41,586 nt of DNA from Exiguobacterium sp. Leaf196 (lineage in GTDB: Bacteria > Bacillota > Bacilli > Exiguobacteriales > Exiguobacteriaceae). Both the position numbers and the translations under genes were made by a program. Position 1 is the stretch's first letter. Each line of letters opens with the position of its first letter. Below are positions 6,626-15,480 of this stretch, piece by piece. The stretch lies in the NCBI RefSeq assembly GCF_001423965.1, contig NZ_LMPV01000002.1, positions 1-41,586 of the forward strand. The letters are read 5' to 3'. The notes beneath the pieces are model-generated. The model saw only the letters and a program-made list of their open reading frames with translations, was not told the DNA's origin and made no database searches.

Positions 6626-6922
6626 TTATTCGTTGCTTGCGTAATGACGATCGAGGAAATCTTTTAATTCAACGAGAACGCGTTGTGCGCCATCTGGTGA
6701 AAGAATCAATTTACCATCAGCCAATTTGAAGTTATCTTCTGATACTTCACCTGTCACTTGGCAAGTCATGTTTGGTTTATATTTTTTAAGGATGATCTGT
6801 TCGTTGTCGACATAGATCTCGAGGGCATCCTTTTCTGCGATTTGAAGTGTACGGCGTAATTCGATTGGAATTACGACACGACCGAGCTCGTCTACTTTAC
6901 GTACAATACCTGTTGATTTCAT
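6626..6922 (-). CDS. abrB: transition-state regulator AbrB
   Basis: A 98-residue AbrB homologue. The N-terminal swapped-hairpin DNA-binding domain is nearly the same as in B. subtilis: STGIVRKVDELGRVVIPIEL, then RRTLQIAEKDALEIYVD and IILKKYKP. A shorter, more variable C-terminal multimerisation domain ends in RHYASNE. AbrB represses many post-exponential genes in Bacillus, so this is expected to be a global growth-phase repressor. A strong ribosome site (AAAGGAGG, 6931-6939 complement) precedes the ATG. It is the only confident protein gene on the minus strand here and has its own promoter with tandem Spo0A-box-like sites. Its paralogue Abh is an alternative identity, but the promoter layout favours abrB. 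Confidence 0.93.
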   Translation of the reverse strand: MKSTGIVRKVDELGRVVIPIELRRTLQIAEKDALEIYVDNEQIILKKYKPNMTCQVTGEVSEDNFKLADGKLILSPDGAQRVLVELKDFLDRHYASNE

Positions 6923-6969
6923 TTTGTTGTTCCTCCTTTGATGTCATGGATCTCTTTTTCTTTTGAAAA

Positions 6970-6986
6970 ATCGTCAAAATTCGACA
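6970..6986 (-). promoter_or_regulatory. tandem Spo0A-box-like operator of abrB
   Basis: On the minus strand the sequence reads TGTCGAA, 3 bases, TGACGAT. The first half is an exact consensus 0A box (TGTCGAA); the second matches TGACGAA in 6 of 7 positions. The B. subtilis abrB operator, as remembered, has TGTCGAA and TGACGAA with the same 3-base gap. The pair covers about +11 to +27 relative to the predicted start site, a position suited to repression. That Spo0A binds it is an inference. Confidence 0.7.
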
Positions 6987-7003
6987 TCGTTTCTATAGAA
7001 TGT

Positions 7004-7032
7004 AGAATACTAGACTTTCCAAAAGTAGTCAA
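7004..7032 (-). promoter_or_regulatory. sigma-A promoter of abrB
   Basis: On the minus strand, -35 TTGACT (7032-7027) and -10 TATTCT (7009-7004) are separated by exactly 17 bases. The predicted start near 6997 gives a leader of about 75 bases. Confidence 0.75.
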
Positions 7033-7203
7033 CCAATCTGAATAGCTTGAAATCAAAATGTCATTTATTTCTCAAAAAACCCATATTTGAAACGATTTAT
7101 TAATATATTTTCCCTTTTTAAAGGAAATGAAACTATAGAGTGTGTTTTTTTGTAATTTGATGTCTGATGTCAAAAAATGTTTCGATTCGACAAAAAGTGA
7201 ATT

Positions 7204-7232
7204 TCGACATCAGTCCCGTAACAGCGTATAAT
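7204..7232 (+). promoter_or_regulatory. sigma-A promoter of metG
   Basis: -35 TCGACA (7204-7209), a 17-base spacer and a perfect -10 TATAAT (7227-7232). A second TATAAT follows at 7237-7242. The -35 overlaps an exact TTCGACA box (7203-7209). Confidence 0.75.
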
Positions 7233-7234
7233 AG

Positions 7235-9226
<1,992 letters not shown>

Positions 9227-15168: not shown

Positions 15169-15480
15169 ATGAACGTTACGGACGTTAAAATTCGTCGCGT
15201 CGTAGCAGAGGGTCGAATGAAAGCACTTGCCTCTATTACGCTCGACCACGAATTCGTGGTACATGATTTGCGTGTCATCGAAGGGAACAGTGGTCTCTTC
15301 GTCGCCATGCCAAGCAAACGAACGCAAGAAGGTATCTTCCGGGATGTCGCTCATCCAATCAATGCATTAATGCGAAAAAAGGTCGAAGATTCAGTACTCG
15401 AAGCCTATGCGGCACGTGAGGATCAAGAAGAAGGCATCGGTTACGAAGTCTCTTCTGCCCAAACGGCAGATCAAGCATAA
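15169..15480 (+). CDS. spoVG: SpoVG, regulatory nucleic-acid-binding protein
   Basis: A 103-residue SpoVG. The family signature is clear: [30 protein letters not shown], then the [11 protein letters not shown] and DVAHPINA motifs, followed by an acidic variable C-terminus. SpoVG homologues bind DNA and RNA and control cell division, virulence and capsule genes in non-spore-formers such as Listeria and Staphylococcus. Retention here therefore does not imply sporulation. AAAGGGGTG precedes ATG 15169. A long leader with a local hairpin (ACAAC gaaga GTTGT) precedes it. It is monocistronic between its own promoter and a strong terminator. Confidence 0.95.

Follow-up and report, generated by a model that had tools for sequence, protein, structure and literature searches.

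A tandem Spo0A-type operator at abrB in non-sporulating Exiguobacterium and its retention alongside Spo0A

The abrB promoter and its tandem boxes

The window analysed here, a stretch of 41,586 nucleotides from Exiguobacterium sp. Leaf196, carries abrB on its minus strand, next to metS, which encodes methionine--tRNA ligase (Table 1). Across the 76 non-Exiguobacterium proteins retained from a protein search, identity to this AbrB ranges over 71-84%, and two Exiguobacterium AbrB proteins match it at 100% identity. A sequence-only reading of the window had described a promoter, TTGACT-17-TATTCT, followed by the tandem motif TGTCGAA-3-TGACGAT, and both were found on the minus strand (7032-7004 and 6986-6970). 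A consensus scan of 6900-7300 recovers the promoter with a score of 9/12, to be read against an average of 1.8 such sites in shuffles of the region. With the putative transcription start set 7-8 nt past the -10 element, the two boxes (0A boxes) fall at about +11 to +27, in agreement with the earlier placement.

Table 1. Features at and around abrB (positions in the window)
Feature	Positions	Strand	Remarks
abrB	6626..6922	-	98-aa transition-state regulator; Pfam AbrB_C and MazE_antitoxin over cut-off; ATG at 6922-6920
abrB ribosome-binding site	6932..6936	-	GGAGG; GGAGGA with 6/6 columns invariant
Proximal 0A box 2	6970..6976	-	TGACGAT; 3 nt (TTT) past box 1
Proximal 0A box 1	6980..6986	-	TGTCGAA, perfect core; identical in 34/34 family genomes
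abrB promoter	7004..7032	-	-35 TTGACT at 7032-7027; -10 TATTCT at 7009-7004; 17-nt spacer
Distal 0A core	7186..7192	-	TGTCGAA; 206 nt upstream of proximal box 1
Distal 0A core	7203..7209	-	TGTCGAA (TTCGACA on +); 223 nt upstream of proximal box 1; overlaps metS -35
Probable metS promoter	7204..7232	+	TCGACA-17-TATAAT; score 11/12; divergent from abrB
metS start codon	7274		ATG
SpoVG	15169-15480		Kept in the window

The motif stands out by its exactness and its place. Written as a 16-mer pattern with 13 fixed bases, TGTCGAANNNTGACGA, it has a single exact match in the window and in the whole source genome (2,975,898 bases, 13 contigs). When up to two mismatches are allowed, the window holds 2 matches against 3.6 expected and the genome 155 against 56 for a reversed control pattern; five near matches in the genome carry one mismatch. 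Near matches alone thus say little, and without an excess in the window it is exactness and position that make the abrB operator special. A position weight matrix (PWM) trained without Exiguobacterium, on 72 of 76 named promoters from Bacillaceae and allies, gives the window site a score of 24.2, and the 7,720 single-base shuffles of 193 upstream regions used as a control reach 15.3 at most.

Conservation within the family is concentrated on the same stretch. For 34 Exiguobacteriaceae genomes (19 from the own genus, 15 from the sister genus), we aligned the 150 nt that precede abrB, an alignment of the kind that the sequence-only reading had proposed. All 16 operator columns are invariant, as against 47 of the 139 other columns, and among 140 windows of 16 columns the operator is the sole fully invariant one. 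The two genera share 100% identity over the operator and 56% over the rest. Promoter columns are invariant in 6/6 positions of the -35 and 5/6 of the -10 element. Box 2 reads TGACGA in 34/34 genomes and ends in T in 28 of them, in C in 5 and in A in 1. The promoter spacer (7010-7026, minus strand) carries TTTTGGAAAG...TAG ahead of TATTCT, and 8 of the 10 columns of TTTTGGAAAG are invariant within the family. By eye, this element resembles TGGAAAnnnTGGTAT in some Bacillus-type abrB promoters. A bipartite TGGNA motif has been named for AbrB (excerpt of PMC11135676), and the spacer motif may be an AbrB autoregulatory site.

The likeness to the abrB operator of B. subtilis, which we read in its close relative B. 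inaquosorum (L025, motif ttTTGTCGAATAATGACGAAG), extends to the TGTCGAA core, the 3-nt gap, the TGACGA box, the position 16-17 nt past the -10 element and the gene itself. The earlier claim that the spacing is that of B. subtilis therefore holds for the shared gap, and the tandem motif is present, within two mismatches and in the 300 nt before abrB, in 72 of 76 named Bacillaceae and allies. On the other hand, box 2 ends in A there and in T in Exiguobacterium, and the Exiguobacterium operator sits in a host without the sporulation programme. According to the parts of the literature available to us, the 0A region lying downstream of the abrB promoter in B. subtilis forms a transcription roadblock (PMC12090719, citing Greene and Spiegelman 1996), and deleting the 'Spo0A box' of the abrB promoter, the position of which is not printed, relieves repression of abrB by Spo0A (PMC9160880). 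The accessible text of PMC4366234 places the Spo0A site of B. subtilis abrB immediately upstream of position -41 relative to the start codon, which is where the proximal boxes sit in the window. Specific contacts to the TGTCGAA core are given for G2, C4 and G5 (excerpt of PMC3485338).

Spo0A and phosphorelay genes without the sporulation programme

The source genome encodes a partner for such an operator. Spo0A (L001:1498-2220, 240 aa) scores 269 bits against the curated NCBIfam equivalog TIGR02875 (cut-off 200), a cut-off passed by only 1 of 14 control genomes, that of B. subtilis. The protein combines a receiver with a Spo0A_C output domain, and both the acceptor Asp and the recognition helix are conserved: the receiver half matches solved Spo0A receivers, the C-terminal half corresponds to the DNA-binding domains solved for Spo0A (1fc3 and 1lq1), and the helix TTASRVERAMRHAI is nearly identical in the alignment with 1fc3. 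Spo0F is encoded at L328, flanked by pyrG and fbaA, and the top eight PDB matches are all to Spo0F. Two other receivers considered as Spo0F, one beside a helicase-nuclease-like ORF (L263) and a CheY-like one at L002, were rejected in favour of L328 for its synteny and its Spo0F structure matches.

The third component is a Spo0B-like ORF of 160 aa between rpmA and an Obg-like ORF recognized by eye. It exceeds the SPOB_a cut-off of 28.1 bits (33.5 and 31.3 bits) and has no NCBIfam match at 1e-6. Since 4 of 14 control genomes also have a SPOB_a match over cut-off, so that the domain alone is not specific, the call leans on synteny as well. Altogether, the source genome has the gene orders pyrG-spo0F-fbaA, rplU-rpmA-spo0B-obg and recN-spo0A of the Spo0 phosphorelay. 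One difference is that spo0A starts 4 nt past the end of recN, with no spoIVB between them, the place that spoIVB occupies in B. subtilis. With Spo0A, Spo0F and a Spo0B-like protein all encoded, the abrB operator has its partner.

A Spo0A match is present in 38/38 family genomes searched. The helix segment SRVERAMRHAI occurs in all 30 of the Spo0A loci read from these genomes, and in 29 of the 30 it shares one open frame with the acceptor segment LDIIMPH. The exception is G002, a genome of the same genus (L250) in which an insertion of ~1.3 kb splits the receiver half of spo0A and the abrB operator is intact; it is possibly a natural spo0A mutant or the product of a recent event. A separate observation concerns G347, from the sister genus (g2), where Spo0A is present and AbrB has no match at E<=1e-25, which makes it a candidate for AbrB loss within Exiguobacteriaceae.

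Sporulation genes are a different matter. SpoIVA, a coat basement ATPase and the sole genome-wide proxy for sporulation used here, has no match in the source genome at E<=1e-30, with a positive B. subtilis control; across a panel of 348 genomes of the class, it is matched in 235, none of which belongs to family f1. Within the window, ksgA-veg-ispE, mfd-flippase, S4 protein-divIC and tRNA-tilS are too closely spaced to accommodate yabG, sspF, spoVT, yabP/yabQ or spoIIE, which lie among these genes in B. subtilis. The claim that sporulation genes are missing at every expected position is slightly too strong because SpoVG is present.

That Spo0A occurs in non-sporulating Exiguobacterium is already published. 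In the sections of these reports open to us, E. sibiricum (2008) has Spo0A, spo0B, a Spo0F homologue, kinA and kinB and is most likely non-sporulating, with a Spo0A only 46% identical to that of B. subtilis (PMC2615787), a point against equating the two switches. Apparently essential sporulation genes, including sigE, sigF, sigG, sigK, spoIIE and spoIVA, are listed as missing from Exiguobacterium (PMC3533761, which also gives missing genes for Macrococcus). Of about 50 signature genes, strain Helios has 17, spo0A and abrB among them, and a transformation protocol is reported for this strain (PMC8706201). E. sibiricum, Exiguobacterium sp. AT1b and Macrococcus caseolyticus are likewise described as having Spo0A without the downstream sporulation genes (PMC2615787, PMC3533761, PMC5325327). 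The text available from these three reports covers genes and leaves the abrB operator, or its tracking of Spo0A, unmentioned.

In this setting, the operator could be a fossil of a sporulating ancestor, kept by chance or inertia. The reported loss of essential sporulation genes (excerpt of PMC3533761), the lack of a SpoIVA match and the intact operator of G002 despite its interrupted spo0A all speak for such a relic. Against it, the operator is the only fully invariant 16-column stretch while its flanks have diverged down to 56% identity, and Spo0A, Spo0F and the Spo0B-like protein are all present. We consider a fossil very improbable, also in light of the Spo0A-less relatives described below. 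The sequence-only reading had named absence of spo0A, together with poor conservation of 6970-6986, as what would speak against its proposal; the search for spo0A and phosphorelay genes that it suggested returned Spo0A, Spo0F and a Spo0B-like protein, and the segment is conserved throughout the family. Of its alternatives, persistence of Spo0A, with presumed control of AbrB for purposes other than sporulation (perhaps biofilm, competence or stationary phase), is the best supported, and the fossil, with cores gone from 29 Spo0A-less promoters, is disfavoured.

The operator and Spo0A among relatives

In the class panel, 111 of the 348 genomes have an AbrB match at E<=1e-25. Every one of the 44 genomes that lack SpoIVA and have Spo0A (E<=1e-35) and AbrB (E<=1e-25) carries the canonical operator. 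These comprise 32 genomes of family f1 (two genera, and including G002, the genome with the interrupted spo0A) and 12 of family f3 (four genera). Among genomes with both SpoIVA and Spo0A, the operator is found in 47 of 57. In the remaining ten, the 150 nt before abrB contain one exact core in a single genome and no core in the other nine, so such boxes are not a universal means of Spo0A control over abrB. The C. difficile abrB gene is stated not to be a direct Spo0A target (excerpt of PMC3485338). One further genome, G124, has SpoIVA and the operator and no Spo0A match; its assembly is a draft of about 210 contigs, and the missing Spo0A is likely, though unproven, to be an assembly gap.

Six genomes of family f10 initially counted as Spo0A-negative and operator-less, a classification that we rejected when a Spo0A_C search found Spo0A in 6/6. 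The apparent absence of Spo0A was an artefact of the E<=1e-35 threshold on TIGR02875 and that of the operator an artefact of a PWM fixed to a 3-nt gap, and the upstream regions show perfect TGTCGAA cores at other spacing. A comparison built on ten AbrB-positive, Spo0A-negative genomes, nine of them operator-less (Fisher p 2e-10, non-sporulators), was withdrawn after this re-reading.

A second panel, drawn from the order of f10 and f42, comprises 157 genomes. Spo0A_C is matched in 24 of them (E<=1e-6) and AbrB in 54 (E<=1e-25). AbrB is present in 24/24 of the Spo0A-positive genomes, and in 23 of these two exact TGTCGAA cores lie within 150 nt of abrB; the one counted as a miss (G296) has Ns over the operator. 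Measured from start to start, the cores are 11 nt apart in genus g143 (8/8) and 20-22 nt apart in the other 15, compared to 10 nt in Exiguobacterium and Bacillus. These re-spaced operators (L275-L301) come from the f10 genera g53, g107, g121 and g143, of which the six genomes tested are SpoIVA-negative, SpoIVA status in this panel covering those genomes shared with the class panel. The distances between cores amount to roughly one or two turns of the helix, which would fit binding to one face of the DNA.

The Spo0A-negative genomes of the same panel give the opposite picture: a TGTCGAA core, on either strand and within 150 nt of abrB, occurs in 0/29. A shuffled control yields a core in the abrB orientation in 23 of 2,650 sequences. 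The 29 are the readable ones among 30 Spo0A-negative, AbrB-positive genomes and represent five genera in families f42 and f58; G450, with an AbrB match of 49% identity, was dropped because no start was recognized. This set perhaps reflects a single loss of Spo0A, in one or two lineages, so that the p-value of 4e-14 over genomes is not independent evidence and the comparison is to be taken as one strong contrast, not many. Some Spo0A-less f42 genomes (L303, from G174, and relatives) carry TATCAAAAATTGATGAAG or a close variant near the operator position in the abrB leader, which could be a decayed operator.

From 44/44 in the class, and 23/24 versus 0/29 in the order panel, the site follows Spo0A and not sporulation. 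This suggests that the abrB site has been retained where Spo0A has been retained, with or without sporulation. The same comparison bears on a takeover of the site by another regulator. In favour of it, Spo0A may have gained other roles; yet the recognition helix of Spo0A is conserved, and the site tracks Spo0A in another order too, even where it is re-spaced to 11 or 20-22 nt. To our mind, such a takeover is very improbable indeed.

Distal cores and a switch that may have outlived sporulation

Further upstream lie the two distal cores (Table 1), and three exact cores within 351 nt correspond to a Poisson P of 4e-4 at the window's own rate. Both distal cores are present in 19/19 own-genus genomes, and 14/15 sister-genus genomes have a core in the opposite orientation at about -282. 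The pattern extends to Bacillaceae and allies. Between -400 and -110, 57 of the 76 named genomes (L013-L088) have a core in the abrB orientation and 61 on either strand, with a total of 103 cores versus 2.2 in shuffles. Among the 70 with a proximal operator, 52 have a same-orientation exact upstream core and 18 have none, and 70 of 78 distal cores in the abrB orientation lie 160-280 nt upstream of the proximal operator. In non-sporulating f3, a distal core is found in 8/9 genomes of g60 and 1/3 in other genera. In the order panel, it is found in 16/24 Spo0A-positive genomes and in 0/29 Spo0A-negative ones, for which shuffles would give 0.75. Helical phasing is a weak argument here: 14 of 27 spacings between neighbouring distal cores are 10, 21-22 or 32-33 nt, and the Exiguobacterium spacing is 17 nt. 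The relation to metS also differs, since a distal core overlaps the metS -35 element in Exiguobacterium and lies 206 nt from the metS start codon in B. inaquosorum.

Non-consensus extra 0A boxes in Bacillus are mentioned in PMC3485338, and Spo0A tetramers and DNA loops are raised as a possibility at the spo0A promoter in PMC12090719 (both in excerpt). Searches of open-access PubMed Central for Spo0A sites at abrB gave no pointer to a distal site; the primary 1990 footprint paper, outside that scope, may already report one. Tentatively, the abrB-metS intergenic region could carry two Spo0A sites, the proximal roadblock operator and the distal set of perfect cores, which Spo0A~P might bridge into a repression loop or through which it might also control metS. 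We regard this as possible, on the doubtful side. If true, control of metS would mean that translation capacity and AbrB are lowered together at stationary-phase entry. The distal cores may instead serve an unannotated transcript.

The distal cores also matter for a reading in which the proximal boxes owe their conservation to the transcribed leader, through an RNA function or promoter escape, and not to a role as a protein site. The boxes do fall in the presumed 5' untranslated region. Nevertheless, f10 has perfect cores at a spacing changed by roughly one turn of the helix, the distal cores lie far upstream of the leader, and a scan of four loci (L025, L028, L051, L010) gave no Rfam match that reached the gathering score. 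A leader function is, for us, extremely improbable.

The abrB operator of non-sporulating Exiguobacterium is thus, with high probability, a working Spo0A operator: a switch that would have outlived the sporulation programme because it would serve other transition-phase purposes. At the level of sequence, this reading is carried by the promoter, the exclusively conserved boxes, a genome that encodes Spo0A, Spo0F and a Spo0B-like protein, and an operator that tracks Spo0A across relatives. Because position, cores, gap and protein are all conserved, the same repression as in B. subtilis is the best explanation. We infer that Spo0A, once phosphorylated, would bind the tandem boxes just downstream of the presumed abrB start, as in B. 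subtilis, and act as a roadblock that stops abrB transcription. As AbrB declines, the stationary-phase genes that it represses would be set free.

Two points go further than what we found in print in open-access PubMed Central: the evidence for tracking of Spo0A by the site, and the distal cores. Judging by the latter, the textbook account of the abrB promoter may be an incomplete one even for Bacillus. More broadly, the presence of Spo0A genes in non-sporulators, so far a published oddity, becomes a testable statement that bears on the role of Spo0A in Exiguobacterium, f3 and f10: the Spo0A-AbrB switch would be a separable module, selected for after sporulation loss and recognizable by its operator.
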